Source: Gordius sp. MW1
Taxonomy: Eukaryota; Nematomorpha; Gordioida; Gordea; Gordiidae
Assembly: GCA_964036665.1 (NCBI GenBank)
Contig: OZ038532.1
Coordinates: 22,161,037 to 22,225,036 of the forward strand
Reading direction: 5' to 3'
Length of the DNA: 64,000 nt
Position numbers and translations under genes: made by a program. This document shows positions 996 to 56,100 of this stretch, piece after piece. Under the pieces are notes generated by a model that was not told the DNA's origin, did not search any database, and saw only the letters and a list, made by a program, of their open reading frames with translations. Position 1 is the first letter of the stretch; each line of letters opens with the position of its first letter.

Positions 996-3900
996 TTGTC
1001 TCATAGCGTCGGTCCATTCCCCGTGACCGTGTTGCAGGGTGCGTACACGCTCCAATTCGTTACATATCTGTACTATATCGCCCACCGCGGCCGGATTCTC
1101 TACGATTTCGACTTCGCCACCCGACTCACCAGCTGATGGTACCGTCGGGATTGAGGTACCAGGTTGTTGAGAAGAATTATCATTGGGCGGAGTGTTGGGC
1201 GTCGCGACATCAGTCACCTTGTTGAGTACCGCCGGGTTGAGAGTCCATCTGGGAGAAATCAGATGTTCATATTCATTCATTTGTTTACAAAAGGGGGATA
1301 GACTGGCGAACAGCTATTTTTTGCATTCTTAAGCAACTTAGAATGCCATTTTGGTGGATTTATTTGCTAGGCGCCCTCGTGGAGTGATTAATTGCAAAAT
1401 TTCAAATTTGAAAGAAAGAACAATGAGAACATAAAAGGATTACCGTTACATACATAAATTTGCATTTATTTCATTTCAACAAAATGAATAACCATGGGCG
1501 TGGCCAGCATTGGGATTAGAGGGTGGCAATAATAATTAAGGAAATGATAATTTTTTGAAATTTTAGCCATAATTTTAATAAATTTTAACAAATTTTTGGA
1601 TTTAGGGAGGGGGGGGGGGGCAGCCGCCCTTGTTTGCGCCCATGTGAATAACGTTTGTTCGGTTAATATACATGTCAAATGGCGACCTACACCCTTACTT
1701 AATAATTAACAGCTGTTTGTCTGTGTATTTTATCTCATTGGTCTATGGGTAGGTAATTTAAATTGCTCGTTAAATACACTAAAACTATTATAAATATGAA
1801 AATAAGGATATTTAGTGAATCTTTCTAGAATTTTCGGCGAACTGTTTACTAACTAGGCCTATTTTTCCTAGGATTGAACAATGATTTGTTTGTTTACCAT
1901 TCTTTAACATTAGAAAATTCAGAAAGAAAATCTAATATAACCATATATGTTAAAAAGAAGAGGTCAAAGAGTAAAGCTAAAGTCAAGTTGGTGTATATTG
2001 GGTTCCACATAATATATTTATTAAACAAAAATATTTATAAATTTATGTGGTATAATTGAGAAAAAAATGTCCTTTTATCAAAGTAATTGGTCAATCATCC
2101 CCCAAAATCCAAATATTCATATATAATAAAAAAAATTTAACTCAAAATTTTAAAGGACAAACCTTTTATCCCTAAATTACCTTCAAACTTTGTGCTGTCC
2201 CATTATATTTGACTTATTCATATAAACGTGAAATTAATAACAAATAAAAATCACCGATTTCCACTCGGGTATAGTACTATGATATCTTGATCCTCATCTA
2301 AGCCAACTACAGTACCTGTGCTTCCAAGACACTATACAACAAATTAAAATTTATATAAAATTACTCTAATTATTTATTAAGCATAACTTATGAAACAAAA
2401 AGATACAAACGTTTATCTATAAAATATATTTGTTAAATAGGGGCAAAAAAATAATATCTTTAAAAAACTAAATATAATTATTAATTTTTATTAACTAAAT
2501 ATTCAAAGATTATTAAACTAATGGGTTGAGGAGAAAGTTCGATTTATCGATTTTTTGCTTCTGTTGAATTATATAATATTCATTAAGTAAAACTCTTTCC
2601 CCTCTAAAAAACTGTGCCAATCGTGATTTTAAGAAATTTAGTTTTTTACAACTTTCGCGACGTCAAAAGGGAGTATCCAAACGGTAAAAATCAACATTTT
2701 CAACACCTGCTATTCTTCGCTTTTCACCGTGGTCAAAACGCTGCTGAAACAGCCCGCGACATTTGTAAAGTATACGGAGAAAGTGTCATAGTTGAGTCTA
2801 CAGCACAAAATGATTAGCAAAGTTCAAAAATGGCGATTTTGACATCGCTGACAAGCCCCGTAGCGGAAGACCCTCGGTTTTCGACGAACAGTGTCTCAGA
2901 GCACTTTTTAAGGAGGACGGTCGCCAAAGAAGTCGTGAATTGGCGGAAATAATGAAGTTCGATCAGAAAACCATCCTAAATCATCTTCATTCGATAAGAT
3001 TTGTCGAAAAATTGGGATCTTGGATCCGTCACGAGCTTAACGAAAGCCACAAAGAAAATCGCCTTCAAATTGCTTCTCAACATCTCGCCCGTCATCGAAC
3101 AACCCGCGGTCATAAACAGCGTTTTTTGTACCGAATCGTCACGGGAGATGAGAAATGGTATTTGTCCGTAAATTTGAAGCAAAGAAAGGAGTGGGTGGCT
3201 CCTGGAGCGACTCCAAAGCCGAGGGTCAAGCCTGACCTCCATCCAAAAAAGACCATGATCTGCGTTTGGTGGGACTGGGAGGGCATCCTGCATTGGGAAA
3301 TTCTGGAAAGGAATGCCACGGTCAACAAGGAGCTCTATATATCCCAGCTACACCGCGTGAATGAAACCATTCGACTCAAAAGACCCCATCGACAAGGCCA
3401 GACCATAATCCTTCACGACAATGCAAGGCCCCATGTTGCTCTAGTCGTAAAAGCCGCACTCCAAGAGCTCGAATGGGAGGTCCTTCAGCATCCACCATAT
3501 TCTCCGGACCTTGCACCGACGGATTACCATCTTTTCCGCTCTCTCTCGAACCATATGAGGGGCGTTACCTTGGACAATGTAGAGGGCCTTAAAAACTGGC
3601 TCAACAACTTCTTCGATACCAGACCGGTCGATTTTTGGCGTAAAGGCATCGAAAAATTGGTCAAAAATGGGAGGAGGTCGTAAACAGCAACGGCGAATAT
3701 ATTATTGAATAAGTTATTGGTATAACAATAAATAATCGTTAAATAAAAGACTTTGATAAAAACTCTACAAACTTTTTCCTCAACCTAATATTAAGGTTTA
3801 CCAAAATTACTTCAATTTGATCAACATATATTTATTCTTCCATTCAAAATCAAATTTAATTATTAAAACTTTGAACATTAATTTTTATTGTTTCTGCACA

Positions 3901-14380: not shown

Positions 14381-14466
14381 TGCGCTATTTGTAGGTTTGA
14401 GCATTTAGTAATTGAGTACGCTTCTGTTCAAAAAGACAATCGTCCATATTGCCAATGCTTCAGAAT

Positions 14467-14486
14467 GCCAATGGCCAAACCAATCA
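14467..14486 (+). promoter_or_regulatory. Two CCAAT boxes upstream of the mini-exon/FLYWCH-MULE gene
   Basis: GCCAATGG (14467-14474) and ACCAATCA (14479-14486) lie about 180 bp upstream of the first candidate ATG (14663). The second octamer also precedes the loci at 12181 and 25439. Regulatory function is inferred. Confidence 0.35.
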
Positions 14487-14642
14487 AAAGTTACCAAAGT
14501 TTTAGAGGTATGTAACATAACGTCTAATATTGATAACCAATTAAATAGTGGCGAAATTCCAATTTGAACGTATCTCCCGCACAGATTTATCCTAAATCAG
14601 CGCTTCCGTCCTAATTTTGGAATTGTATGATTAATTTTTAAG

Positions 14643-16784
14643 ATCTAACTGCAAACTCTAAAATGCCTGTTTTATCAACTTCTGAACCCATTCCTCAATT
14701 TAGAATTATAAGGCCACCAAGTAAATTTCTGAATTGTATACTAATTACTTAGGTGTTTCTGCAAATTCTATTTTGGAAACATCTCAACCCATTCCTCAAT
14801 TTAGAATTATAAGGCCATCAAGTAGATTTCTGAATTTGTACTAATTACTTAGGTGTTTTAGGTGCTTCTGCAAACTCTATTTTGGCAACATCTCAACCCA
14901 TTCCTCAATTTAGAACTTCTCAACCCATTGCTCAACTTAGAATTATAAGGCCATCAAGTAGATTTCTGAATTTTGTACTAATTACTTAGGTGTTTTAGAT
15001 GTTTCTGCAAACTCTTTTTTGGCAACATCTCAACCCATTCCTCAATTTAGAACTTCTCAACCCATTCCTCAATTTAGAACTTCTCAACCCATTGCTCAAT
15101 TTAGAATTATAAGGCCATCAAGTAGATTTCTGAATTTTGTACTAATTACTTAGATGTTTTAGATGTTTCTGCAAACTCTTTTTTGGCAACATCTCAACCC
15201 ATTCCTCAATTTAGAACTTCTCAACCCATTCCTCAATTTAGAACTTCTCAACCCATTGCTCAATTTAGAATTATAAGGCCATCAAGTAGATTTCTGAATT
15301 TTGTACTAATTACTTAGATGTTTTAGATGTTTCTGCAAACTCTTTTTTGGCAACATCTCAACCCATTCCTCAATTTAGAACTTCTCAACCCATTCCTCAA
15401 TTTGGAACTTCTCAACCCATTGCTCAATTTAGAATTATAAGGCCATCAAGTAGATTTCTGAATTTTGTACTAATTACTTAGGTGTTTTAGATGTTTCTGC
15501 AAACTCTTTTTTGGCAACATCTCAACCCATTCCTCAATTTAGAACTTCTCAACCCATTCCTCAATTTAGAACTTCTCAACCCATTGCTCAATTTAGAATT
15601 ATAAGGCCATCAAGTAGATTTCTGAATTTTGTACTAATTACTTAGGTGTTTTAGATGTTTCTGCAAACTCTTTTTTGGCAACATCTCAACCCATTCCTCA
15701 ATTTAGAATTATAAGGCCACCAAGTAGATTTCTGAATTGTATACTAATTACTTAGGTGTTTTAGGTGCTTCTGCAAACTCTATTTTGGAAACATCTCAAC
15801 CCATTTCTCAATTTAGAATTATAAGGCCACCAAGTAGATTTCTGAATTTTGTACTAATTACTTAGGTGTTTTAGATGTTTCTGCAAACACTTTTTTGGCA
15901 ACATCTCAACCCATTCCTCAATTTAGAACTTCTCAACCCATTCCTCAATTTAGAACTTCTCAACCCATTGCTCAATTTAGAATTACAATGCCATCAAGTA
16001 GATTTCTGAATTTTGTACTAATTACTTAGGTGTTTTAGATGTTTCTGCAAACTCTTTTTTGGCAACATCTCAACCCATTCCTCAATTTAGAATTATAAGG
16101 CCACCAAGTAGATTTCTGAATTGTATACTAATTACTTAGGTGTTTTAGGTGCTTCTGCAAACTCTATTTTGGAAACATCTCAACCCATTTCTCAATTTAG
16201 AATTATAAGGCCACCAAGTAGATTTCTGAATTTTGTACTAATTACTTAGGTGTTTTAGATGTTTCTGCAAACTCTTTTTTGGCAACATCTCAACCCATTC
16301 CTCAATTTAGAATTATAAGGCCACCAAGTAGATTTCTGAATTGTATACTAATTACTTAGGTGTTTTAGGTGCTTCTGCAAACTCTATTTTGGAAACATCT
16401 CAACCCATTTCTCAATTTAGAATTATAAGGCCACCAAGTAGATTTCTGAATTTTGTACTAATTACTTAGGTGTTTTAGATGTTTCTGCAAACTCTTTTTT
16501 GGCAACATCTCAACCCATTCCTCAATTTAGAACTTCTCAACCCATTCCTCAATTTAGAACTTCTCAACCCATTGCTCAATTTAGAATTATAAGGCCACCA
16601 AGTAGATTTCTGAATTTTGTACTAATTACTTAGGTGTTTTAGGTGCTTCTGCAAACTCTATTTTGGAAACTTCTCAACCCATTGCTCAATTTAGAAGTAT
16701 AAGGCCACCAAGTAGATTTCTGAATTGTATACTAATTACTTAGGTGTTTTAGGTGCTTCTGCAAACTCTATTTTGGAAACATCT
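14643..16784 (+). repeat. Mini-exon array, units 1-16 and first half of 17
   Basis: Exons by downstream acceptor: 14643-14720, 14753-14821, 14862-14957, 14999-15121, 15163-15285, 15327-15449, 15491-15613, 15655-15723, 15765-15833, 15875-15997, 16039-16107, 16149-16217, 16259-16327, 16369-16437, 16479-16601, 16643-16711, 16753-16784 (interrupted). Lengths are 78, 69, 96 or 123 nt, all multiples of three. The longer ones carry one or two extra 27-nt blocks encoding TSQPI(P/A)QFR. Each ends in a single base before GT and begins with two bases after AG, so the joining codon is usually Ser. Introns run from GTAGATTTCTGAATT to ACTTAG or to the next TTTTAG, giving 32 or 41 nt. Confidence 0.85.
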
Positions 16785-19700
16785 TGTTGTAGTCGCTGAC
16801 TACATTATGAGTAGAAAGCACAGCTGCGCTTGCAAGAGAGTACGGGAAATGTATGCTCTTTGTGAAGAATGTTGTATCATGGCACACTCACACAAAACCC
16901 CCCCCCCCCTCATCTTAGTTTGCATATTTATTAAAGTCTGTATACGCGTAGTCCCTCTCCCCCTCCCCATTGCTCTTACGCATTTTAACTCGGATCTATA
17001 TCCAGACGCGTAGATATACATCACGTGTAAATGTAGATATCCATACGCGCGTTATTATTTGTTAATTATTGTCTTTGTTCGTATAGAACAGATGTAGTTT
17101 TTTCCTTTTCATTTTAGATATAAATAATTTCGCTGCACTAATTCGCGCGGTTACTTGGGATTAATTATTATTGAAATAAATTCCTAAAAGATAAATTAAA
17201 GTTAAGGTAAGTAAAATATCCAATAACATGATAACTTAAATCTTAATCATGATAATTGTTAAAACTTAATTCTTTTACCTTTTCTAACATTAATAATTGA
17301 TTTAAAGAGATACTTTTCTTATTCTTTTATCACTTTCTTACAATGGTGATAGCGGAAAACCGATACTTAATTTTAATCTTATGTTTGATACTAAAATAAG
17401 TAAATAAATTATGTCTTAAAACTTTTATAAGAAAGATGATAATTGTTAATGAGTTTGGTATTTTGAAATTTAAATTTAAACGTAAATTTTGGGGTAATAT
17501 GTGATTTAATGAAATGAGTTCGGTAGTTTGAAATTTTATAATTAGTACTTAAGTCCCAATAGAATCGCGCGAAGGTAAATTTTTCATAATGCATGTTTTA
17601 TTCCTTTAAATTTTTCACTTTTGCTTTTTCGCATGGAATTTTTTTGATTCATTATCCGTCATGGTCCTTGATTGATCAGCTGGTATCTGACAGTGCGAAA
17701 TAGAGTGCCGAGAGTATATAATTCCGGTGCTGTAGAACGCTATTGCAGTTCTGGAAAATTCTGTCGGTACCTGCTGGTGGACAAGATGACGCGGTGGTAT
17801 TTAACGTGTAGAACGAGGTTTCGGATATGCATGAGCGCACGTATACCCAGAAGCGAATTAATTAGTTTTTTCGACGTTAATCGTCGGTACACTTTCGGGT
17901 GTGGCGCCTACGGGTGCGACGTCTACGGACGTGTTTAATTAATTCGGAGGCTTATTGCCTGTTATGACCTGTTTTTTTTGGCTTTATGCCCTATCACCTT
18001 TATATTAGGTTTGATGAGGTCGAGTTTTCTGGGTGGGCAAATTGCCCGTGCGCATGATTGATTAATTTGTTGGAGTTAATTACCTCGCATGTGCGAAGGG
18101 AAGTTAATACCATCGTTGTCAGGTCCAAGGTTACCGTTATGGAGTTCATAGCTCCCAGGTGATTATGGTAGGCGGAGTTGCATTTATGCGAGATACGCCT
18201 TATGACAGTTTTTTACACTTAGTGATGTCGCGACGTCACCTATAATTTACCGGAGATATCGTACGCTTTGGTCGAGAGGCTAGCGGCTCTTATAGAGGAG
18301 CGGCCTGGAAGACTTAGAGTGACGAAGATGTTTCTGTCTTGCTCGTATGGGGGAAAATCAAAGAAACAATTGGGGTGAAGTATCCTATCCCGAACCCAAC
18401 GACGCTCAGATGCTCTGGCCAAAACGCTCTCCCCCTAGCAAGCTTGAAGGGTATGGTGCGTTTGCGTTTCAATTTTTACGGTCAACGACGAAATTAAATC
18501 GAGAAGACCAATCAAGACCGAACAGGAAAACGAGCCTGGTAATGTTCAATACAAATCGAGGTCAACAACTCAAATTCGACGACAGGGCTTAGAAGTTAAC
18601 GATCAGGTCGGTGGAGGTTATCGTGAAGGGTATGGTGTTGTAGTCGCTGACTACATTATGAGTAGAAAGCACAGCTGCGCTTGCAAGAGAGTACGGGAAA
18701 TGTATGCTCTTTGTGAAGAATGTTGTATCATGGCACACTCACACAAAACCCCCCCCCCCCCCTCATCTTAGTTTGCATATTTATTAAAGTCTGTATACGC
18801 GTAGTCCCTCTCCCCCTCCCCATTGCTCTTACGCATTTTAACTCGGATCTATATCCAGACGCGTAGATATACATCACGTGTAAATGTAGATATCCATACG
18901 CGCGTTTTCATTGGTCAAATATAATCTTTTGTTCACAACATAACATATGATGTAGTTTTTTCTCATTTCTAAAATTATCCATAATTATATAATATTCCTC
19001 GCCGATTCTTATTGGGAAAATAAATTATTCTATGAAATAAATTATGAGTAAAGTAATTGTAAGGTAAGAAACAGACATTGTCTTTATAATAATAACGTAG
19101 GTTATTACACATCTCAACCCATTTCTCAATTTAGAATTATAAGGCCACCAAGTAGATTTCTGAATTTTGTACTAATTACTTAGGTGTTTTAGATGTTTCT
19201 GCAAACTCTTTTTTGGCAACATCTCAACCCATTCCTCAATTTAGAACTTCTCAACCCATTCCTCAATTTAGAACTTCTCAACCCATTGCTCAATTTAGAA
19301 TTACAATGCCATCAAGTAGATTTCTGAATTTTGTACTAATTACTTAGGTGTTTTAGATGTTTCTGCAAACTCTTTTTTGGAAACTTCTCAACCCATTCCT
19401 CAATTTAGAACTTCTCAACCCATTGCTCAATTTAGAATTATAAGGCCACCAAGTAGATTTCTGAATTTTGTACTAATTACTTAGGTGTTTTAGGTGCTTC
19501 TGCAAACTCTATTTTGGAAACTTCTCAACCCATTGCTCAATTTAGAAGTATAAGGCCACCAAGTAGATTTCTGAATTGTATACTAATTACTTATGTGTTT
19601 TAGGTGCTTCTGCAAACTCTATTTTGGAAACATCTCAACCCATAGAGGCATCTCCAGAGTATTTAAGATCGCAAAAGGGTGGATTCCACTTGTATTTTTC

Positions 19701-21206
19701 TTCCTACCTCTATAGGAAAAAAATTACAGTTAGAGGCAAAACATATTACTCGTGTAGAAACTCGTCCTGCTCAGCAATTGCCTCGGAATTTAATGGACAT
19801 GTTGTTGCCAAGCGACAACATAATCATTTACCACCGAGGGAAGAGTATGAGGCGTTGGTTACTAGGATGAGGCTAAAAGATGCTGTAGCAGCGAATCCTG
19901 CTACCAAAATTAGCAGGATATATCATCAAACCATGGCGTCAAGACTTCGTGAGGTCCCCGAACTACCGGAATTCCCATTGGCAACGCCTTCCTTGAAATC
20001 CGTGAGGTTGACGCTAAAAAGGGCCATCCCCAATAGGCAACTTGTTCCCGCGGACAGAAGTCAAATTCGTTTGACCGAAGTCCAAACATTAACCCCAAAT
20101 AATGAGTCGTTCTTGCTGTGGAATGATGACAACAATCTCATCATTTTTGGGACACCCTCTATTTTAAGGATTTTGTGCCAGGTAATGGATGGTACATTTA
20201 AAGTCTGCCCTACCTTATTTCATCAAGTAAATTATTAATTTTATGTATTTATATATCGATAATTTTAGCTTTATACTATTCACGCCTACTACAAGGAACA
20301 TATGATCCCCGCGGTCTATGTATTTATGCCTAATAGAAAGCGCGAAACATATTGCAAGGTCTTCCAAAAATTAAAGGACATATGTTTGGCTTTAGGTTTG
20401 CGATTGGACCCGACTTATATCCAAATTGACAGAGCGCTCTTCGAACATGCTTTCCCAATGCCGTAGTAAAAGGTAATAATTAATTTGTAGCGCTAATATG
20501 TTTTTAAGGATGTCTCTTCCATTTTTCAAGGGCTATCTTGAGACGGATGGATAAACTTGAATTTAAAAAGGAATACTCTAGAAATCCCACCATACGAAAA
20601 TTAATTAGGAGAGTCTCGGGTCTCCCTTTTTTGCGGTTTCAAGATGTCTTCACTGTTTGGAGAGCATGTTGGGACGACCCTTTTGTCTCCCAACATGCAA
20701 AACTACGATCTTTTTTTGATTATATTTTAAGTAGTTGGATTAGCCCCTCTGCCACATTCCCTTATTCAATGTGGCAGAGGTACGAGGCTGTTGGTCCTAG
20801 GACCAACAACCACCTCGAAGGCTACCACAATGGACTAAAGTCCTTAATTGGGCAACCGCATCCAGATATTTATACCTGTATTGCTTTTTTACTTGAAAAT
20901 AATGAAAAGACTGAGATCAATCTCATGCAGATTGATCAAGGCCAGACTTTATATTCGATTAATAAATGCGTTCGCATGAAAAATGCTCACCTTAACACTT
21001 TACACGCTTTATATTCTGATACTTCGCGTTATACTGATATTTTTAATTATGTAGATAACGTCGCGAAATTGATATCTCTTGATTTTGACTCGCGATTTTG
21101 GAATTATTCTAATACTGTTATATTGCATTCGTTTGCTAATAATGATTCGAATATTTCAGATGACAGGGACACTAGTGACTTTTCAGACACTAGTGACCCT
21201 GAATAA
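14643..21206 (+). CDS. FLYWCH-MULE transposase gene with a 20-member mini-exon array at its 5' end
   Basis: Twenty mini-exons (14643-14720 through 19494-19562) are followed by exon A 19604-20226, exon B 20269-20472 and exon C 20509-21206 (TAA). Candidate start is the ATG at 14663 inside mini-exon 1. Exon A opens with the same ASANSILETSQPI sequence as the mini-exons, then carries a FLYWCH finger (YLYRKK, YYSCRNSSC, QHNH) and the first MULE aspartate (MDGTFKVCP). Exon B starts LYTIHAYYKEHM and holds the second aspartate (YIQID). Exon C supplies the CLFHF motif and the third acid (NNHLEGYHN). The order matches Mutator-like DDE transposases with FLYWCH fingers. Exon B is 204 nt where 3n+1 is required; one base appears to be missing near the CCC at about 20457, giving a stop at about 20466. 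Mini-exon 17 is split by an LTR element. Whether this is a mobile element or a host gene is not settled, and I did not find terminal inverted repeats. Confidence 0.72.
16785..17053 (+). repeat. 5' LTR, portion shared with 3' LTR
   Basis: These 269 bp match 18636-18906, differing mainly in the length of a C-run. Beyond 17053 the two LTRs diverge, though GATGTAGTTTTTTC and GGTAAG words recur in the same order. Confidence 0.8.
18636..19109 (+). repeat. 3' LTR of the inserted element
   Basis: This 474-bp copy runs from TGTTGTAG to TTACA and is directly followed by the right target duplicate CATCT. Only 18636-18906 is near-identical to the 5' LTR. Confidence 0.78.
19115..19562 (+). repeat. Mini-exon array, second half of unit 17 and units 18-20
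   Basis: After the LTR element the array resumes: 19115-19151 (37 nt; with 16753-16784 it restores a 69-nt unit), 19193-19315 (123), 19357-19452 (96) and 19494-19562 (69). The next unit is fused to the FLYWCH exon at 19604. If every unit were included, the array would add 1,821 nt, or 607 codons, in front of the FLYWCH finger. Confidence 0.85.
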
Positions 21207-21790
21207 AATTTATTATTAATTTTCTTGTGAACTGTGTAGAGGTTAAAGTTAAACCGTTTCAGTGCGGTCTATCATTAATCTCTTATTTATACTAAGAGGG
21301 GCAAAGGAAGGGGGAGAAATTGGATTGGCAATGGGCAAAATCTAAGCAGGGGGTCAGAGAAACAAGTACGTTTATAACCTAAAGCAACGAAATTGACAAA
21401 TTTACAAAAAAAAGTCTAATAATCAAGTGAGATTCAGAAAAAGAACAAATATTTTTTTGATGGGAAAATGTATCTTTGAAATCAAGGTACCAAATGGTCA
21501 AAAGCTGCTGGCACAAATATTAGAATTGATTTTAGCCTCTGGCCGGGGTCCGACAAATTAAATGTAAACAGAGGTCATTACATTAGTATATATTTGGGGT
21601 TAGAAATTGTAAATGTGGGACGAGTTTCAAGGTAAGATTTACGAAAATAAATAGCAAAGACAAAAGGTAATTAACAAGGATATTGACCTCAGTTAAGGGA
21701 CAGACAAATTAGGAGTAAGCAACGGTCATCATTGATTTGCAGGGAATTTTTTAGCCATTTTTCCAATTATCCGTTATAAAGTCAATGCTA
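21207..21790. repeat. Repeat-family fragment between the MULE gene and an RTE copy
   Basis: Words such as TTTTAGCCTCTGGCCGGGG, GTAAGCAACGGTCATCATT and CAATTATCCGTTATAAA recur in the tandem repeat at about 33870-34260. The RTE fragment at 21796 begins directly after this block, and related GC-containing repeat sequence resumes at about 23520-23650, so the RTE may have inserted into it. Confidence 0.5.
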
Positions 21791-21795
21791 ACGAT

Positions 21796-23513
21796 ATGTG
21801 GAATAACATAGCTAACACGGTACGATCAGTAGCGAGATGTGTTCTAGGAGAAGGTAAACCAGGTATACAAAAAGATAAGGAGACATGGTGGTGGAACGAA
21901 GACGTGCAACGCCGGGTCAAATTGAAAAGAAAGCTTTACAAATTATGGTCAGGAAACAGAAATGAGGAAACACGATTGGCATATGTGAAAGCTAAAAATG
22001 AGGCAAAACGTTGTGTAGCCAAGGCTAAAACAGGTCTACGATAATTTGAATGCCAAGTTAACCAGTAAAGAAGGGGAAAGAATGATCTACAAAATCGCAA
22101 AGACTAGGGCAAGGAACTCAAAGGATGTGGTAAACGTGAAAACCATAAAGAGCAAAGATGGCATCACTCTAACTCTGGACCATCAAATCATAGATCGTTG
22201 GGAAGAATATTATAAAGAATTATTAAACAATTAAAATGGGTTTTCGGACCACTGCGAAAGCAAGAACTATGAATATGACCCAGAGTTAGAAGTGACAGAA
22301 GAAGAGCTTGATAAGGTGCTCAAAAAGATGACCATGGGTAGAGCGGTGGGACCTGATAATATACCTATGGAAGCTTTCAAAATGCTAGGACCCTTAGGTG
22401 TACATCTACTTGCAAAGCTGTTTAACAAAATACTTGCAAGTGGTATGGTGCCTGATGAGTGGAGGGAAAGCTATGTTATATCTATCTATAAAATGAAGGG
22501 AGATGTACAAGAATGCAACGACTATCGAGGGATAAAGTTAACGAGCCACGTAATGAAGGTGTGGGAAAAGGTTATAGAAGCTAGACTCCGAAAAATAATA
22601 TCAATAGATGAACGACAATTTGGGTTCATGCCTGGAAAGTCGACTTCAGATGCAATACATGGTCTTAGGAGACTTATGGAAGTATATAAGGAAAAACAAA
22701 AGGATCTTCATGTGTTTTATCGATCTTGAGAAAGCTTTCGATAAAGTGGCCAAGGCAGTTGATATGGGATAGCCTGAGTTCCAATGGTGTACCTGAGGCT
22801 TATATAATGTTAATAAAGGATATGTATAGAAACGCCGAGATAAAACTGAATATGTATGCTTGGAGTCGGGGAATGAATACAAAGAAACACACTTGCAAAT
22901 CGATGACTTGTGTTTAAGCAGCAGGAAAGAATTCAAATATCTTGGTTCTAGGGTACAATGTGATGGAGGTGTGGAAAACGAAATTAAGGCAAGAATAAAC
23001 GCAGGCTGGCTAAAATTCAGGGAGTTGAGTGGTGTGCTATGTGACAAGCACATACCACTCAAATTGAAAGGACGGTTATATAACACCGTTATTGTACCCA
23101 CGGTATTGTATGGAGCGGAAAGCTGGGAAATAAAGGCAAAAAAGGAGCAAAGCTTGGCTACAATGGAGATGCGAATGTTGAGATGGATCTTGGGAATAAG
23201 CAAAAAGGATCATATAAGGAATCAAGACATAAGGAACAAACTAAATGTAGTTCCGATTCAGAGAAAGTTGGTGGTAAGAAGATTGAGATGGTATGGCCAT
23301 TTGGAGAGACGGGAGGAAAGTCACTTGGCAAATCGTATAAAGAAAGTGCGAATCGAAGGTAAGCGAAAGAGAGGGAGGCCTAAACTGACATGGAAGCATA
23401 AAATTGATATGGACTTGAGAAGGTACGAGCTAAAGCGAAGCTGGTGTAAGTGCAGGAATACATGGAGAACCTACTTAAAGGAGCTGGCCACTAAATGTGA
23501 CAAACAGCTATAG
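21796..23513 (+). pseudogene. RTE-type retrotransposon, RT region with catalytic core deleted
   Basis: Frames on the plus strand match RTE-clade reverse transcriptases: a linker with WWWNEDVQ, then GPDNIPMEAFK, NDYRGIKLTSHVMKVWE and RQFGFMPGKSTSDAIH, then (after a frame change near 22715) the motif-A stretch FIDLEKAFDKV. The next conserved parts, including the YxDD active-site box, are missing. The sequence jumps from about 22855 to the C-terminal domain (EFKYLGSRVQCDGG, PTVLYGAESWEIK, RRLRWYGHLERR). At least two frameshifts and the deletion make it dead. Confidence 0.85.
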
Positions 23514-25140
23514 GAAAAAAAGGTCATACGTAGACAAATCGCCAAAAGGAATTTATACATAACGGTAATCAATCGCGCCCATAAGCCTTAATGGAATTTG
23601 ACCTCGGGCGAGGCCGAAAAACTTAAAACAACACATTAATTAGCTGATCTTTTTGTGAAAGCAAAAAAATTTTTTAAAGAAGCATAAGTCCACAGCCATA
23701 AATTGCGAATTGGACAGGAGAGGCGAATACAAGACAATGCAATTAATTTACGCATTCCTAAAAACTAGTCCCTAACATTTAGCATTTCATCATGTTTTTA
23801 TTCGATTTTTTTTACCGAATTTGTCCAGAGAAATCAGCTTGATGTGAATGGATTATCAGCAAGTTTTGGGCTGATGAGCCACTAACCCCCCGAAGCAAAC
23901 TCACGTTAACAAACCAAGTCAAACGTGATTTCCAAAATTAACACAATTTTATCATAAAGTATAACGTTGTTACGGTGTTCCCCGTATCTCAAATTGTAAA
24001 ATCACTTAATGTTTGTCATATTTAACAACATTTATATCTTTGATAAACAGAAAAAATTATAAAGTTCACTTGTTTCTATAAAATAAACATTAATTATAAT
24101 AAAGTTTAATCATTGTAATTAAAATCTGGCAAATTTATTTAATCTCACTCACTTAAATCAATGATAAAAGTCAATGTTGAAAATTAAAATTAAGAGTTTC
24201 ATATAAAAAAATTTCAAGTTTTATTTTACTTAGGAATTTTAGTATTTGGACATTGGTTAATGTGTTATAATATCATTACCTTATGACCTTTGTTTAAATT
24301 AGTAACATATACATATAGACCTAAAATATTATTTTTATTCTTAAAATTAAACTATTGTCCTTTTTTATAGCAATGCCATGTATATCTCTATTTTTCATAT
24401 TGTTTATATTTTTTAAATTATAAGGCTAATGTCCATTTAATACCAATTTCTTTATCAATATTAGAAAATAGAAAAGGCAACAATTACTATAAAATTTATT
24501 TGATAGCAATAATATGCAAATCATAAAAATCTATGTTTTATCAATATTATCCCAGAGATGTTTCAATACTAATCTATTTGTCAACAAATAATATATAGTA
24601 TAATTATAAGAAAGTTTACATATTTAGATAATGTAATTAAATCCAAAAATCTACATTAATCAGATGTAAAATTTTCAATTTATAATTAATTTGCTAATAT
24701 CCAACTATATATAAGTATCATTAACTTATGCATTTTGGTATAAAGTAAATATATATTAGTCTATAACAAGCCATAATTGTAATACAAATGTAAATGTATT
24801 TATATACAAAATGCAAAATTAATTTAAAACATAGTCATTATTCTACTGTTGTTTAATAACATTATAAGTACACATAGATATATGATAATCATTATAATAA
24901 AATTAACTGTATAGTGACCTATTACTTAAAAATAATAACATATGACTTATCATTTAAAATACGTAAGCTTATAAAAGGTCGTGTGCACCTTAATCTCTAT
25001 AAGTATTCATTAGTTTATGTGCAAATAACTACAAATTAAAAGCCTATGCATATGTTATTTATTTTTTTATTAATAGCTTTATATTTAGTAATTTTTTAAT
25101 ATATTACAATTTTGCCATTTAAATTATAGTTTTTAGTTTT
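23514..25140. other. AT-rich intergenic DNA, no gene seen
   Basis: The first 150 bp has repeat-like GC words (CTCGGGCGAGGCCG). The rest, to about 25140, is over 75% A+T by eye with no coding frame or RNA gene that I can recognise. Confidence 0.5.
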
Positions 25141-25248
25141 TGTGTCTAGTTTGTTACAGTCATTGGCATTGTGGATGATTGGCATTGTGAATGGGATTCA
25201 ATTGAGTAGCGCTTCTGCACAGCCGTTCGAATCTCTATCGATTCGAAG

Positions 25249-25438: not shown

Positions 25439-26145
25439 ATGCAATTTTCTGCAATTCCCCAAACATCAAAACGGCAATCGATTGGTAATAATAATGTATA
25501 TAGCATTGAATTTATTTATACATTTTAGGTCAAATTTATTCTGTGAGATCTTGTGCAATAATGCCTCATATGCCTATACAATCCCCAGTCCAAACATTTG
25601 CTCCCACAAGTATATTAGCATTGAATTCATACATTTTAGATCAAATTTATTCTGTGAGATCTTGTGCAATAATGCCTCATATGCCTATACAATCCCCAGT
25701 CCAAACATTTGCTCCCACAAGTATATTAGCATTGAATTCATACATTTTAGATCAAATTTATTCTGTGAGATCTTGTGCAATAATGCCTCATATGCCCATA
25801 CAAGTTCCAGTCCAAACATTTGCTCCCACAAGTATATTAGCATTGAATTTATTATACATTTTAGGTCAAATTTATTCTGTGAGATCTTGTGCAATAATGC
25901 CTCATATGCCTATACAATCCCCAGTCCAAACATTTGCTCCCACAAGTATATTAGCATTGAATTCATACATTTTAGATCAAATTTATTCTGTGAGATCTTG
26001 TGCAATAATGCCTCATATGCCCATATGAGTTCCAGTCCAAACATTTGCTCCCACAAGTATATTAGCATTGAATTTATTATACATTTTAGGTCAAATTTAT
26101 TCTGTGAGATCTTGTGCAATAATGCCTCATATGCTAACATATTAA
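25439..26145 (+). CDS. Small gene made of an ATG exon and six tandem mini-exons
   Basis: Exon 0 (25439-25484) encodes MQFSAIPQTSKRQSI and ends in phase 1. It is followed by 25529-25609, 25640-25720, 25751-25831, 25865-25945 and 25976-26056 (each exactly 81 nt, phase 1-1), then 26090-26145 ending in TAA. Introns are 44, 30, 30, 33, 30 and 33 nt with GT..AG. Each mini-exon encodes IYSVRSCAIMPHMPIQSPVQ then TFAPT. All exons joined give 507 nt (169 codons), but unit 5 has an in-frame TGA (CATATGAGTT where another copy has CATACAAGTT); skipping it gives an uninterrupted 141-codon frame including the stop. Unlike the larger array, these introns lack in-frame stops, so an unspliced tandem-repeat protein is an alternative. 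No FLYWCH domain is present and the function is unknown. Confidence 0.55.
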
Positions 26146-26524: not shown

Positions 26525-26739
26525 AATAACTTTGCCTGGGCTAATCAAGCCCAACAATTTGCTTCTCCAAGTATATAACCCTTGCATTTTTTTGTACTTT
26601 TTAGGTCCACAAGCTGGGAGAATACATGCAATAGCTCCTCCTCAAAATTTGCTAATTCAAGCCCAACAATTTGCTTCTCCAAGTATATAACCCTTTTATA
26701 TTTATATGCTTTTTAGGTCTACAAGCTCGGAGAATATGA
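26525..26739 (+). repeat. Third type of mini-exon repeat, two and a half units
   Basis: A clean unit at 26605-26682 (78 nt, phase 1-1) follows TTTTTAG and ends before GTATATAA. It encodes PQAGRIHAIAPPQNLLIQAQ then QFASP. A diverged copy ends at 26570, and a third starts at 26717 and hits TGA at 26737-26739. It may be the 3' part of the preceding locus or a separate remnant. Intron lengths are about 34 nt. Confidence 0.5.
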
Positions 26740-47100: not shown

Positions 47101-50100
47101 AACAAAACCCAGCCGTTTTTACAACTCTAGTAACCAGGGGGAGGCAGGGAGGGGCAGCTACCCCCTCTAACCACAACTCTAGTAGCCAGGGGGAGGCAGG
47201 GAGGGGCAGCTACCCCCTCTAACCACAACTCTAGTAGCCAGGGGGAGGCAGGGAGGGGCAGCTACCCCCTCTAACCACAACTCTAGTAGCCAGGGGGAGG
47301 CAGGGAGGGGCAGCTACCCCCTCTAACCCCAGAAATTTTAAAAATTTACAATAAGTATAGCTTAAATTTGAAAAAACTTGATTTTGCCTCTCCCTAAATC
47401 ATTATTGCCCGCCACCTCTAATTTCAATCCTGGCTACGCCCATGACCAAACCTATAAAAGACTAGAGGATTCTGCGATTAAAATTATAAGGACTTGCTAT
47501 TTTTTTTAAATTTAATGAACAATTCTTAATGCGACAAAAAAAAATCGGCAAATAGATTCATAATTTGTCAATCATTATTTTCAAGAATTAACACTTATTT
47601 TTTGTTATAATAGAGGTTTATTTATCAATAATTGTGTATGATACATGCTAAAATATGTTTAATTAATAAGCTAGCATAAGTCATGGATCAAAATTGTATT
47701 GGGATTTAATAAATTTTTAACAAAGAACATTCATACTTATGAGTTACTACAACAATTAATGTATTTATAAAATGAAAAAACAAGGTCCTGGTCTGGTATT
47801 CATAGTATATCCCCGGGCTGTGGCCCGACTGCCAGTGCCCCAGTTGTGGTCAGTCCTCTTCTTTGTCATGCTTTATAGCCTGGGATTAGACAGTGAAATA
47901 GCATTGCTACAAACAGTCTCTAGTGCATTGCATGACCAACTACCTTCCATCTTCCCTTGGAGATATAAAACTTACATGAGTGCTACCTTATGTTTCGCTT
48001 GCTTTCTACTAGGACTCCCTTTCGTGACTTACGTAAATTTCTATTTTATTTATTTTATTTAAATTTATTTATTTAATTTATTTATTCAATTTATTTATTC
48101 CACTTTTTTGTAGGGAGGTTTTTACGTGTTTGATCTGATCAATTTTTACGTGGGTGATTTTTGTTTAATCATGATAGCTGCAGCCGAGCTTGTGGCCATT
48201 ATGTGGATTTACGGTAAATTCTTATCCTTTTCAAACTACCAACCTTTTTCTATTTATTTCATAAAAAAATATTAAAATTGTTTATTATTTTAAATATTCA
48301 AAATTTTTAGATTTTTTAAATTTTATTTGAAAAATTTGTTATTTTTGACTTTAGGAATTAAGAGATTCATCAAAGATATCGAAATGATGCTGGGCCGTAA
48401 ATTGCCACAACGTTGGTATTGGGTATCTAGTTGGGCATTTTTTGGACCCATTGTTTTACTAGTAATTTAAAATTTATTCAATTCTAATTATATTTTATTA
48501 ATAAAATGATAAAAAAAATCAATTTTTTACAATTAATCAATAAATATCATGAAAATATGAAGACTTTAGCTGCGGTATCGCTTTATGATCTGCTTACTGG
48601 AGAACAACATACTTTCGACAAATATGTTTTTCCAGCTTGGGCTCATGTTTTTGGTTGGACTCTAACTATGGTTATTATTGGTTCAATCGTTATTGTTGGC
48701 TTTATATACGTGGTGAAACAGAAGGGAAAACCAATACAAGTATATTATAACTTATAGTTTTTGTTTTTCAATACTATAATAAATTAATTTCTATGCTAAG
48801 CAACTCACATATGTTAACTTGCATGCTATAACAAATTAATTAGTTTTCTGTGAATAATGTTAAAGAACATCACCAAGCAAATGATATATTAAATGTTTTA
48901 GGATAATATAAATTATATCTATTTAATGAAAAATGGCGGTTAAATATATCTTCGAAAATTGCAATAAATCCATTTTATCATATATTATATATGGAATCTA
49001 TCCCTATTGATCCTGCATTCCAAATACGTATTTGTATATCCCTCAAATGATCTGCTATCATCATCACTACTAATCAAAGCAAACTGAATCCTCTACTAAT
49101 TTACCTGGAAACTCTTCAAAAACTCTTCACAAACACACAAATAATGAAAACAATCAACCCAATTAATTACATCACAACTTACTATTCAAAGCATACTGAA
49201 TCCTCCATTTAGTAACCTCAAAACCCTTCACTGTCAGTATTTCAATTATTTATACATTTCTTATCACTACTTTATTAACTTCCATATTTTTAAAATTTTT
49301 GTTTTGTTTAATCAACACATATTTAGACCTAAATTTAAATACCCAAACATTTAAATTATATAAATAGGAATCTTTTAACATAATTAGAACCAACCTTTAC
49401 AATATGCAATCTCATATCTTTTACAAAATAATTTATCTAAACAAGGTAACATAAAATTTCTTTTAACTTCCATATTTTTTTTTTTTTTTTTTTTTTAATC
49501 AACACATATTTAGACCTAAAGTTAAATACCCAAACATTCAAATTATATATATAGGAATCTTTTAACATCATTAGAACCAACCTTTTCAATATGCAATCTC
49601 ATAGCTTTCACAAAATAATTCATCCTAATCATGGTAACAAAAATTAGTAATTTTTTTTTTTCTATTAAACGACACCAATGTTCCTTATTAGGCAAGTAGT
49701 AACATAATTAGAACCAACCTTTACAATATGGAATCTCATCTCTTTTACAAAATAATTTACCTAATCAAGGTAACAAAATTTTTTTTTTTTTTTCTTTAAA
49801 ACAACATCAATGCTCCCCCACTATATCCTTAAGATTTTCCCGTATCCTTCCTCTATAATTAATATAACTATGTCTATTTCTTATATGTAAGCTGTTACAT
49901 TACTATTTCTCCATTTTGACATGCCTACCACAAATTGCCCATCTTGCAATAAGACTTTTACACTCACTAAAGCTGGCAAATTTATCATCCATGGTCCCCG
50001 TGATAACCGTTGCCCATTATCAAACTCATTTCCCTCAAGTACATCAACAATCTCCAGTAGCAGTTTCTTTAACAGCCACCACAACGCAACCCCTGAGCAC

Positions 50101-53100
50101 GTGCTTGCTCCTGATAAACCCCCGAAACAAAATGACTCTTCTTGGGCTAGCCAAATAATAAGCCTCCAAAAACCTAACACCATCTCTAGGATTCCCAGAG
50201 GTGCTCGTGAATGTTTTAGTACTCTCCTAAACCAAATTATTACCTCAATCATACACAACCCTGCTAATCATAAGAATTGGGAAAGCCTCTTTACCCTTAG
50301 TTTTCACACTCTAGCCATCCCCAACCCTGCTACAAAGCACCTCTCAAAAGACATTAAAGCATCAATCTTGGAATTTGATCTCCTTAATCCCTTAAAACCA
50401 CCCTTGAAGCACAACCATCACCCAGTTGACAACAAAGCTAAAAGGATAGCCAACAAAATCAACAACATGGAAATCCGCTCAGCGCTTAAAATCCTGGAAT
50501 CGGATGACTCAATAGCGCCAAATACCAATACCACCTTCGACCTCCTCCTGCAAAAACACCCCGAAGGTCATCCATTACCGCCTAACCTCCTAAACGTCTC
50601 AGATATTCCCCTCATGGACTTCACTCTCCAAGAAGTAGCCGAAGCTCTTATGTCTTTCAAAAAAGACTCAGCCGGGGGCCTCGATGGTATACGACCAATT
50701 TACCTTCAGGACCTCACCAAACCTCAACTTAGCGGTTCACATGCTCTTCTAGCCAACTTAACCAACCTTTGTAACATAATAAGGCGGGGACATTTTCCTT
50801 CTGAAATAGTTCCTCTCCTATTTGGTGGAAAACTGATTGCTTTTAAAAAACCAGATGGTTCGATCCGACCCATTGTTGTTGGATCAGTCCTCCGACGCAT
50901 GGTTTCCAAAATAATAACCTCTCGAATCCGTTCACCTTTAACGGCTTCTCTCCTCCCAGCTAAGCAACTCACATATGTTAACTTGCATGCTATAACAAAT
51001 TAATTAGTTTTCTGTGAATAATGTTAAAGAACATCACCAAGCAAATGATATATTAAATGTTTTAGGATAATATAAATTATATCTATTTAATGAAAAATGG
51101 CGGTTAAATATATCTTCGAAAATTGCAATAAATCCATTTTATCATATATTATATATGGAATCTATCCCTATTGATCCTGCATTCCAAATACGTATTTGTA
51201 TATCCCTCAAATGATCTGCTATCATCATCACTACTAATCAAAGCAAACTGAATCCTCTACTAATTTACCTGGAAACTCTTCAAAAACTCTTCACAAACAC
51301 ACAAATAATGAAAACAATCAACCCAATTAATTACATCACAACTTACTATTCAAAGCATACTGAATCCTCCATTTAGTAACCTCAAAACCCTTCACTGTCA
51401 GTATTTCAATTATTTATACATTTCTTATCACTACTTTATTAACTTCCATATTTTTAAAATTTTTGTTTTGTTTAATCAACACATATTTAGACCTAAATTT
51501 AAATACCCAAACATTTAAATTATATAAATAGGAATCTTTTAACATAATTAGAACCAACCTTTACAATATGCAATCTCATATCTTTTACAAAATAATTTAT
51601 CTAAACAAGGTAACATAAAATTTCTTTTAACTTCCATATTTTTTTTTTTTTTTTTTTTTTAATCAACACATATTTAGACCTAAAGTTAAATACCCAAACA
51701 TTCAAATTATATATATAGGAATCTTTTAACATCATTAGAACCAACCTTTTCAATATGCAATCTCATATCTTTCACAAAATAATTCATCCTAATCATGGTA
51801 ACAAAAATTAGTAATTTTTTTTTTTCTATTAAACGACACCAATGTTCCTTATTAGGCAAGTAGTAACATAATTAGAACCAACCTTTACAATATGGAATCT
51901 CATCTCTTTTACAAAATAATTTACCTAATCAAGGTAACAAAATTTTTTTTTTTTTTTCTTTAAAACAACATCAATGCTCCCCCACTATATCCTTAAGATT
52001 TTCCCGTATCCTTCCTCTATAATTAATATAACTATGTCTATTTCTTATATGTAAGCTGTTACATTACTATTTCTCCATTTTGACATGCCTACCACAAATT
52101 GCCCATCTTGCAATAAGACTTTTACACTCACTAAAGCTGGCAAATTTATCATCCATGGTCCCCGTGATAACCGTTGCCCATTATCAAACTCATTTCCCTC
52201 AAGTACATCAACAATCTCCAGTAGCAGTTTCTTTAACAGCCACCACAACGCAACCCCTGAGCACGTGCTTGCTCCTGATAAACCCCCGAAACAAAATGAC
52301 TCTTCTTGGGCTAGCCAAATAATAAGCCTCCAAAAACCTAACACCATCTCTAGGATTCCCAGAGGTGCTCGTGAATGTTTTAGTACTCTCCTAAACCAAA
52401 TTATTACCTCAATCATACACAACCCTGCTAATCATAAGAATTGGGAAAGCCTCTTTACCCTTAGTTTTCACACTCTAGCCATCCCCAACCCTGCTACAAA
52501 GCACCTCTCAAAAGACATTAAAGCATCAATCTTGGAATTTGATCTCCTTAATCCCTTAAAACCACCCTTGAAGCACAACCATCACCCAGTTGACAACAAA
52601 GCTAAAAGGATAGCCAACAAAATCAACAACATGGAAATCCGCTCAGCGCTTAAAATCCTGGAATCGGATGACTCAATAGCGCCAAATACCAATACCACCT
52701 TCGACCTCCTCCTGCAAAAACACCCCGAAGGTCATCCATTACCGCCTAACCTCCTAAACGTCTCAGATATTCCCCTCATGGACTTCACTCTCCAAGAAGT
52801 AGCCGAAGCTCTTATGTCTTTCAAAAAAGACTCAGCCGGGGGCCTCGATGGTATACGACCAATTTACCTTCAGGACCTCACCAAACCTCAACTTAGCGGT
52901 TCACATGCTCTTCTAGCCAACTTAACCAACCTTTGTAACATAATAAGGCGGGGACATTTTCCTTCTGAAATAGTTCCTCTCCTATTTGGTGGAAAACTGA
53001 TTGCTTTTAAAAAACCAGATGGTTCGATCCGACCCATTGTTGTTGGATCAGTCCTCCGACGCATGGTTTCCAAAATAATAACCTCTCGAATCCGTTCACC

Positions 53101-56100
53101 TTTAACGGCTTCTCTCCTCCCAGCTAAGCAACTCACATATGTTAACTTGCATGCTATAACAAATTAATTAGTTTTCTGTGAATAATGTTAAAGAACATCA
53201 CCAAGCAAATGATATATTAAATGTTTTAGGATAATATAAATTATATCTATTTAATGAAAAATGGCGGTTAAATATATCTTCGAAAATTGCAATAAATCCA
53301 TTTTATCATATATTATATATGGAATCTATCCCTATTGATCCTGCATTCCAAATACGTATTTGTATATCCCTCAAATGATCTGCTATCATCATCACTACTA
53401 ATCAAAGCAAACTGAATCCTCTACTAATTTACCTGGAAACTCTTCAAAAACTCTTCACAAACACACAAATAATGAAAACAATCAACCCAATTAATTACAT
53501 CACAACTTACTATTCAAAGCATACTGAATCCTCCATTTAGTAACCTCAAAACCCTTCACTGTCAGTATTTCAATTATTTATACATTTCTTATCACTACTT
53601 TATTAACTTCCATATTTTTAAAATTTTTGTTTTGTTTAATCAACACATATTTAGACCTAAATTTAAATACCCAAACATTTAAATTATATAAATAGGAATC
53701 TTTTAACATAATTAGAACCAACCTTTACAATATGCAATCTCATATCTTTTACAAAATAATTTATCTAAACAAGGTAACATAAAATTTCTTTTAACTTCCA
53801 TATTTTTTTTTTTTTTTTTTTTTTAATCAACACATATTTAGACCTAAAGTTAAATACCCAAACATTCAAATTATATATATAGGAATCTTTTAACATCATT
53901 AGAACCAACCTTTTCAATATGCAATCTCATATCTTTCACAAAATAATTCATCCTAATCATGGTAACAAAAATTAGTAATTTTTTTTTTTCTATTAAACGA
54001 CACCAATGTTCCTTATTAGGCAAGTAGTAACATAATTAGAACCAACCTTTACAATATGGAATCTCATCTCTTTTACAAAATAATTTACCTAATCAAGGTA
54101 ACAAAATTTTTTTTTTTTTTTCTTTAAAACAACATCAATGCTCCCCCACTATATCCTTAAGATTTTCCCGTATCCTTCCTCTATAATTAATATAACTATG
54201 TCTATTTCTTATATGTAAGCTGTTACATTACTATTTCTCCATTTTGACATGCCTACCACAAATTGCCCATCTTGCAATAAGACTTTTACACTCACTAAAG
54301 CTGGCAAATTTATCATCCATGGTCCCCGTGATAACCGTTGCCCATTATCAAACTCATTTCCCTCAAGTACATCAACAATCTCCAGTAGCAGTTTCTTTAA
54401 CAGCCACCACAACGCAACCCCTGAGCACGTGCTTGCTCCTGATAAACCCCCGAAACAAAATGACTCTTCTTGGGCTAGCCAAATAATAAGCCTCCAAAAA
54501 CCTAACACCATCTCTAGGATTCCCAGAGGTGCTCGTGAATGTTTTAGTACTCTCCTAAACCAAATTATTACCTCAATCATACACAACCCTGCTAATCATA
54601 AGAATTGGGAAAGCCTCTTTACCCTTAGTTTTCACACTCTAGCCATCCCCAACCCTGCTACAAAGCACCTCTCAAAAGACATTAAAGCATCAATCTTGGA
54701 ATTTGATCTCCTTAATCCCTTAAAACCACCCTTGAAGCACAACCATCACCCAGTTGACAACAAAGCTAAAAGGATAGCCAACAAAATCAACAACATGGAA
54801 ATCCGCTCAGCGCTTAAAATCCTGGAATCGGATGACTCAATAGCGCCAAATACCAATACCACCTTCGACCTCCTCCTGCAAAAACACCCCGAAGGTCATC
54901 CATTACCGCCTAACCTCCTAAACGTCTCAGATATTCCCCTCATGGACTTCACTCTCCAAGAAGTAGCCGAAGCTCTTATGTCTTTCAAAAAAGACTCAGC
55001 CGGGGGCCTCGATGGTATACGACCAATTTACCTTCAGGACCTCACCAAACCTCAACTTAGCGGTTCACATGCTCTTCTAGCCAACTTAACCAACCTTTGT
55101 AACATAATAAGGCGGGGACATTTTCCTTCTGAAATAGTTCCTCTCCTATTTGGTGGAAAACTGATTGCTTTTAAAAAACCAGATGGTTCGATCCGACCCA
55201 TTGTTGTTGGATCAGTCCTCCGACGCATGGTTTCCAAAATAATAACCTCTCGAATCCGTTCACCTTTAACGGCTTCTCTCCTCCCAAACCAACTTGGTTT
55301 TGGCGTGAAAGGAGGATGCGAGGCTGCTTCCCATGTAGCTCGAACATTTCTTGAGTCTTCTTCATCAAATGACCTCCTGGTGAAACTCGATTTTAAAAAC
55401 GCCTTTAACAGCGTAAACCGAGCAGCCTTTATTGAACCGTTCATACAACAATTTCCGGAATACCATCAGTTTCTGTTAAATAGCTATGGGAACCCAACGT
55501 ATCTACTCTTTGGGGACCAAATAATCAAATCATCCCAAGGGATCCAACAAGGAGATCCTTTGGGCCCGGCCCTTTTCTGTTTGGCCATTCAAACTATCAT
55601 CGATAAACTCTCCTCCCTAGGAGCCTTCTCATGCAATTTATGGTACCTTGATGACGGATTCCTGGTCGGCCCAGCCGAAGCAGTCCGGCAAATCCCACAG
55701 ATCATCAATGGCTTCGCAGACAATATATCACTCAGCCTAAACACATCGAAATGTGAGATCTTCACCAAAGATCTCACAATTGACAAACTCTCCCTCCCAT
55801 TCCCAGTCTTATCAAGAGATGACTTTCATTACTTAGGCGCTCCCATTGGAGGCGTTAAAACAACTGAAACATTCTTAGAGCATTTCTCCGGTTTCATCGA
55901 CTCCATATCCCACACCCTGGAGCGTCTAACTCCCCACCATGCCTTTTTCCTCTTAAAAAACTTCCTCCTAATACCCAAAATTAACTATGCATTACGCGCC
56001 TCGCCCGTCTTCCTAGCCGTTAACCTACTCCACGCGATGGAAAAAAAAATCCAATTGCTAGTCGAAAGGTGCCTAAACCTTAAATTTAGCCCTCTCCAAT

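Follow-up and report, generated by a model that had tools for sequence, protein, structure and literature searches.

A 64,000-nt stretch of the Gordius sp. MW1 genome (contig OZ038532.1, positions 22,161,037 to 22,225,036 of the forward strand; hereafter the window, whose numbering is used below) harbors a tandem array of 20 symmetric mini-exons (14643..19562, + strand) ahead of the FLYWCH exon of a Mutator-like element (MULE). The array probably belongs to the 5′ coding region of the transposase gene of a Phantom-like FLYWCH-MULE and would be translated into a loosely constrained, repetitive N-terminal tail that lengthens as units duplicate. This reading is carried by the architecture of the locus, the phase and openness of the units, their variable number among near-identical copies, the recurrence of such arrays in six groups of FLYWCH-MULEs and a conserved linker in front of the FLYWCH domain, all of which are observed in the genome.

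Unit-by-unit parsing of the window DNA gave an exact count of 20 units, whose exons measure, in order, 78, 69, 96, four times 123, 69, 69, 123, four times 69, 123, 69, 69 (split), 123, 96 and 69 nt, together 1821 nt or 607 codons. All 20 are multiples of three and phase 1-1 (split unit 17 counted without its insertion), so that the addition, loss or skipping of a unit leaves the frame undisturbed. The introns between them measure 32, 40 or 41 nt (41 nt in 18 of 20), and most of them offer, by eye, two candidate acceptors 9 nt apart, either of which preserves the frame. With unit 17 omitted, the spliced phase-1 reading that starts in the upstream exon 1 and covers the first 60 nt of the FLYWCH part is open over 630 amino acids (aa). 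A previous sequence-only reading of this DNA had described the array by hand, and its coordinates, exon lengths, phase, short introns with GT..AG borders and estimate of about 607 extra residues (unit 17 insertion excluded) were reproduced to the base. One correction to that reading is that unit 17 (16753-19151) is interrupted by a 2325-bp insertion resembling a long terminal repeat (LTR) element (16785..19109, + strand), with a 5-bp duplication, CATCT, on both sides, TG..CA ends and direct repeats starting from 16785 and 18636.

The array belongs to a family-A copy of a FLYWCH-MULE DNA transposon (14419..25199, + strand), which contains two nested insertions and is flanked by a perfect 9-bp target-site duplication (AATTGAGTA; 14410..14418 on the left and 25200..25208 on the right). 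Its terminal inverted repeats (14419..14457, + strand, and 25161..25199, − strand) are imperfect and match at 27 of 39 positions, and the motif GCCAAT is present twice at each end. Independent left-end and right-end searches concur on these borders: 13 further family-A places end within 4 bases of 14419, and the right border near 25199 is found in 24 places, window included, at an identity of at least 98%. Coding begins further left than the sequence-only reading had proposed, with exon 1 (MAKPIKSYQSFR; 14471..14507, + strand), which ends in phase 1 at the donor G|GTATGT and is separated from the array start by a 135-nt intron; position 14465 holds another in-frame ATG. Both the MAKPIKSYQ start and this donor recur in two older family-A relatives, L031 and L032. 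On its other side, the array is followed by an exon (19604..20226, + strand) that the sequence-only reading had located correctly, but which opens with a fused, in-frame, truncated 21st unit and continues into the FLYWCH domain (Pfam PF04500, 27.8 bits, cut-off 23.6) and the first part of the MULE transposase. This exon has no methionine ahead of the domain.

The remainder of the gene consists of a 42-nt intron (20227..20268, + strand; placed by flanking protein conservation with families B and C), body exon 2 (20269..20472, + strand; frameshifted here by a 16-bp deletion), a 36-nt intron (20473..20508, + strand; parsed from the window DNA and the body-intron comparison) and body exon 3, which runs to the stop and terminates in DTSDPE (20509..21206, + strand). 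Scored alone, window exon 3 gave no Pfam match; the window exons align by eye with those of families B and C, and the spliced family-B protein contains the MULE domain PF10551 (53.4 bits, cut-off 27.6) and, N-terminal to it, FLYWCH PF04500 (30.5 bits). By the MULE domain scored in family B, a target duplication of 9 bp (MULEs have 8-11 bp) and inverted ends, the element is, on sequence evidence, a Mutator-like element, and its FLYWCH domain N-terminal to the MULE domain suggests the designation Phantom-like, a name that rests on this domain order. The identity of the FLYWCH-MULE body had been recognized before; the sequence-only reading had missed that it is one of ~25 near-identical transposon copies and that the copy in the window is defective: unit 17 is split, the 16-bp deletion near 20433 shifts the frame, and 12 bp next to the codon of the first catalytic aspartate are lost in frame.

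When the FLYWCH exon was used as query against the genome from which the window comes (211.8 Mb, 12 contigs), it matched 24 places at an identity of at least 96% and one more at C1:18511608, i.e. ~25 near-identical copies, along with further relatives at 92%, 89% and ~70% identity. One hotspot aside, an alignment of the gene from 21 copies (1655 columns) showed substitutions at 21 sites and 6 indels, while the parsed number of units ranged from 6 to 23 across the 17 copies that include the array start; the array therefore evolves far faster than its own gene. This bears out the previous suggestion of a rapidly growing repeat domain, as do the different arrays in five further groups described below. 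Common family-A exon lengths (69, 96 and 123 nt) step by 27 nt and introns by 1 nt (40/41 nt in family A, 34/35 nt in type B), and units are strongly homogenized within a family. Among 337 units shorter than 200 nt from 21 copies (four longer pieces, namely one split unit and three parser merges, being excluded), 328 are open in phase 1 and multiples of three, a count of copies of few ancestors and not of independent events. The reading from exon 1 to the FLYWCH part was open in 8 of 12 copies and contained a stop in the other 4 (long pieces excluded).

Family A also occurs in other configurations. Fourteen of the ~25 copies form seven head-to-head pairs with their arrays facing each other (e.g. 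C7:6430916-6447305, C3:21120846-21138422 and C4:19164051-19179691); both outer right ends are present in all seven, and the inner left ends of several pairs have been truncated and fused. Elsewhere, families B and C have one such pair each, and a group of 41% identity has four, one of them reversed. Three elements of ~3.2 kb (C8:23432072-23435298, C8:35508804-35512027 and C6:20845874-20849142) match family A over the left 115 bp (with exon 1) and the final 160 bp, though not over the first unit, and have no listed FLYWCH match; known here from their ends, they are probable non-autonomous derivatives.

Arrays of this layout are not restricted to family A. Among the FLYWCH-MULE groups read, which leave out those of ~41-60% identity and the rearranged relative L046, we distinguished six array types, all of them phase 1-1 and positioned upstream of FLYWCH: type A of the window; type B (L030, L041), with exons of 81 nt and introns of 34-35 nt; type B2 (L044, L045 and window 25529-26113), with exons of 78-81 nt and introns of 30-34 nt; type C (L029), with exons of 78 nt, one of 74, and introns of 47-51 nt; type D (L047), with 63-nt exons and 31-nt introns; and type E (L048), with 105-nt exons and 39-nt introns. 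The frame neutrality noted for the window array is thus repeated in other FLYWCH-MULE groups of the genome. Types B2 and C contain one stop-bearing unit each. In type E, the intron length is itself a multiple of three, and the L048 array consequently reads through whether spliced or unspliced; at this locus (C6:18163650 region, minus strand), an 893-aa open frame surrounds the FLYWCH exon. The possibility that the array introns are too short to be real was ruled out by the body introns, which measure 34-48 nt and were placed by protein homology.

The second array of the window consists of mini-exons of type B2 (GQIYSVRSCAIMPHMPIQSPVQTFAPTS and its variants, of which one contains a stop; 25529..26113, + strand) and lies in an older element that adjoins the family-A insertion. 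This older element, which extends from 25209 onward, also contains a single B-type mini-exon (GPQAGRIHAIAPPQNLLIQAQQFASPS; 26605..26682, + strand), as if lineages kept a mixed stock of mini-exons and amplified one or the other. The family-A insertion lies 1 bp beyond the left end of the older element (25200-25210), whose end likewise starts with CGCTTCTG, and C8:446680-447167 resembles a similar insertion beside another copy of this older array-bearing element.

A common unit is open in phase 1 in each of the six types, and both other forward frames are stopped in five of them (one is open in B2). With borders fixed, the joint probability of this outcome for the six common units was 5e-4. In a second test, each circular unit was dinucleotide-shuffled and any border was allowed. 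Under any GT..AG with an intron of 28-60 nt, shuffles yielded a suitable partition with a probability of 0.17-0.58 per type (joint P 8e-4); with GTR..YAG and a pyrimidine tract, it was 0.014-0.11 per type (joint P 1e-8). These joint values assume six independent groups, an assumption that B and B2, whose FLYWCH exons are 80% identical, may not fully satisfy.

Further support comes from the stretch between array and FLYWCH domain. Types B, B2, C and D, as well as L031 and L032, possess a short linker exon whose core is conserved (e.g. QDAMLLIDVTNQM), and in type E the linker is fused to the last array unit. Over the 13 codons of this core, pooled from B, B2, C, D, E and L031 (the decayed copy L032 being excluded), synonymous differences (pS 0.79) far exceeded non-synonymous ones (pN 0.18). 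Within the linker exons of B, B2, C, D and L031 there is no in-frame methionine ahead of the core, and hence the start must come from an exon further upstream. Given the conserved linker in five groups and L031, exons ahead of FLYWCH are predicted to be translated. By eye, L031 and L032 carry a second linker exon too. The 21 young family-A copies are without linkers: their last unit continues into FLYWCH, with no indel there in an alignment that begins 40 bases before the junction. The linker exons of relatives, lost in this subfamily, had escaped the sequence-only reading.

Several observations weigh against a translated array. Purifying selection on the array peptides was not found: of the 56 variants present in two or more units of an array, 11 were synonymous, versus 12.7 expected. 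Exons were more variable than introns (54 of 756 versus 9 of 348 columns, P 0.002), in a comparison where family-A length classes overlap, a 60-nt parsing artefact is counted (a 114-nt one is not) and rows are not independent. Nine of the 337 family-A units are broken (five are not multiples of three and four contain a stop), and one 71-nt broken unit is common to two paired copies. Comparison of the array peptides between the six groups showed no clear similarity, the lowest of 15 pairwise P values being 0.042 (C-E) and 0.056 (C-D), both uncorrected. The array peptide found no match among the 7992 candidates scored, and repeats ahead of the aligned part were absent from all 36 database relatives found for the family-B transposase (7992 candidates scored here, too), although this stretch is shorter than 60 residues in 29 of the 36. 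The two best of these protein relatives, from Gordionus, are 37% and 39% identical. Homology of the six array peptides was also considered and dropped: pairwise comparison was unclear, and a supposed common QP..RP motif failed to hold. Taken at face value, the array peptide appears free to vary within frame and composition, and this lack of constraint fits a disordered tail and also an untranslated array.

In the reading we favor, exon 1 near the 5′ end would supply the start codon and be followed by tandem copies of a unit of exon plus short intron. In the other groups read, the linker would come next, as an exon of its own in four and fused to the last unit in type E, ahead of FLYWCH and the DDE transposase. 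Units would multiply most likely via unequal exchange or replication slippage and, once spliced in and translated, would give a proline-, serine- and glutamine-rich N-terminal tail, probably disordered, that varies widely in length and may be indifferent to its exact sequence. It is rather unlikely that the arrays represent, beyond this, a recurrent and re-inventable N-terminal module, in which each lineage amplifies a different mini-exon and the front of the protein is renewed in a contest with host repressors or by partner switching, with splicing choice adding variety.

If untranslated, the array would be a set of subterminal repeats that serve as binding sites for the transposase or a chromatin factor and lie, in effect, within one large 5′ intron, the open frames being a by-product. 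We consider this unlikely. Introns better conserved than exons and an unconstrained peptide would be expected of such an array, and FLYWCH MULEs often carry subterminal tandem repeats, as far as accessible accounts of Muta1 (PMC5225508) and Tm1 (PMC3169594) go; yet the units here measure 94-164 bp as opposed to 10-15 bp, and the array occupies the 5′ side only, whereas GCCAAT occurs twice at both ends. The ~3.2-kb elements without a first unit, compared at their ends, also hint that the array is dispensable in cis. Since six different arrays are open, multiples of three and in phase, a non-coding tandem repeat was rejected as the leading reading and kept as a rival. The same recurrence bears on a satellite-like origin, in which the repeats merely spread themselves and the open frames reflect chance plus copying of one lucky unit. 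Strong homogenization and the descent of units within a family from few ancestors, which deprives the 328 of 337 of independence, agree with such a history; it would nevertheless require six separate occurrences with identical location, phase and strand (joint P at most 8e-4 if independent), which makes it highly improbable.

Combinatorial alternative splicing, which the sequence-only reading had also proposed from the layout, differs from the favored reading of a growing N-terminal tail in that the cell or the element would pick variable subsets of units and thereby produce many transposase isoforms. Any subset of intact units indeed retains the frame, as do the paired acceptors seen by eye, and nearly all shared variants of family-A units alter the peptide (1 of 24 is synonymous, versus ~5.7 expected). 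On the other hand, the units differ hardly at all in their splice sites, leaving nothing visible to direct a choice, and symmetric exons are to be expected anyway in any array that grows harmlessly. Combinatorial choice among units is unlikely.

Judged by the open-access literature searched, the transposon setting is of a known kind and the 5′ exon array apparently new: full-text search returned no exon array in a transposase among the matches listed, in agreement with the earlier statement that no described system is known to decorate a FLYWCH or MULE protein in this way. Accessible descriptions of Phantom MULEs report, as here, a FLYWCH domain with a MULE (DDE) transposase, 8-10-bp target duplications and subterminal motifs; their transposases comprise 416-554 aa in Aedes families and 496 aa in Tm1, encoded by 2 to 7 exons, and an N-terminal exon array is not mentioned in these texts for the Phantom elements Muta1 and Tm1 (PMC6446971, PMC5225508, PMC3169594). 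Muta1 of Aedes has 504 residues, two predicted exons, FLYWCH at 24-92 and a subterminal 12-bp repeat in 9 copies (PMC5225508), and Tm1 of Meloidogyne has 496 residues, FLYWCH at 5-66 and ~14-bp repeats in its ends (PMC3169594). According to the available text of a MULE survey, minisatellites follow the transposase open reading frame in aphid Phantom and precede the 3′ end in Rehavkus, and thus are, as here, tandem repeats inside the element that adjoin the transposase gene (PMC6446971). Unlike those, the repeats of the present element lie 5′, between start codon and FLYWCH, and are split into exon and intron.

FB-NOF and Galileo are Foldback elements with large, variable tandem-repeat arrays. 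Large tandem arrays of variable length, a Foldback feature also in the accessible account of Tm1 (PMC3169594), are shared by the elements studied here, whose head-to-head pairs resemble fold-back structures. Foldback repeats, however, lie in both inverted ends, while here they occupy one side of a single element and read as exons; with an array on the 5′ side only and an inverted repeat of ~39 bp, single copies are not Foldback elements. A different parallel is offered by the micro-exon genes (MEGs) of schistosomes, whose exons are symmetric and can be skipped. The many short exons of MEGs, as described in the text available (PMC10526429), are a feature in common with the array. MEGs are host genes with long introns that encode secreted proteins, in contrast to the introns of 30-51 nt and the transposase gene found here, and assignment of the window array (introns of 32-41 nt, a transposase as product) to this class was rejected. 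In Drosophila mod(mdg4), trans-splicing joins one common 5′ part to many alternative 3′ FLYWCH exons. FLYWCH proteins with many isoforms are indeed mentioned for this locus in the accessible text (PMC3169594). The arrangement in Gordius is the opposite, with one FLYWCH exon and many 5′ units.

The indel hotspot of the family-A gene alignment is located at the first catalytic aspartate codon (window 20178-20199 and the same site in other family-A copies). Here, a perfect 11-bp hairpin (GTACCATCCAT TTAC ATGGATGGTAC) is the site of 10 different indels, which between them affect 13 of 21 copies, versus 0.1 events predicted from the rest of the alignment; in one allele, the loop is inverted and part of the other arm is copied in, and 3 additional family-A copies also deviate in length from the intact form. 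Such indels occur in 10 of 13 paired and 3 of 8 single copies (P 0.16), and in none of 11 copies of family B, where the hairpin is imperfect. A second hairpin (GAGCGCTCT GCAA AGAGCGCTC in other copies; window 20422-20443) adjoins the second catalytic aspartate, and the 16-bp deletion at this site is confined to the window copy (1 of 21).

The window contains sequences of other mobile elements, too. A non-LTR reverse-transcriptase remnant (window 21736-23513; RVT_1 28.4 bits, just below the cut-off of 29.6) rides inside the transposon in the copies read and is partly absent in 3 of 21. Further downstream (window 48795-57117), head-to-tail 2164-bp repeats of 99.95-99.98% identity contain a reverse-transcriptase gene (946-aa frame, RVT_1 82 bits), which we take to be R2-like; at L009, 12 bases separate the 3′ end of an element of this type from a family-A copy that is interrupted at the equivalent of window 14526/14527. 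A 289-aa frame with Transposase_1 and DDE_3 domains (window 2814-3683) is presumably mariner-like.

If the favored reading is true, the genome would hold six versions of a transposase gene built for fast change of its N-terminus without loss of frame. Such genes would offer a test bed for the origin and multiplication of symmetric exons, for how the spliceosome copes with ~20 near-identical exons separated by introns of 30-50 nt, and for whether a variable tail benefits a transposon. For genome annotation, they come with a warning, as arrays of this kind may be mistaken for host genes or for satellite DNA.

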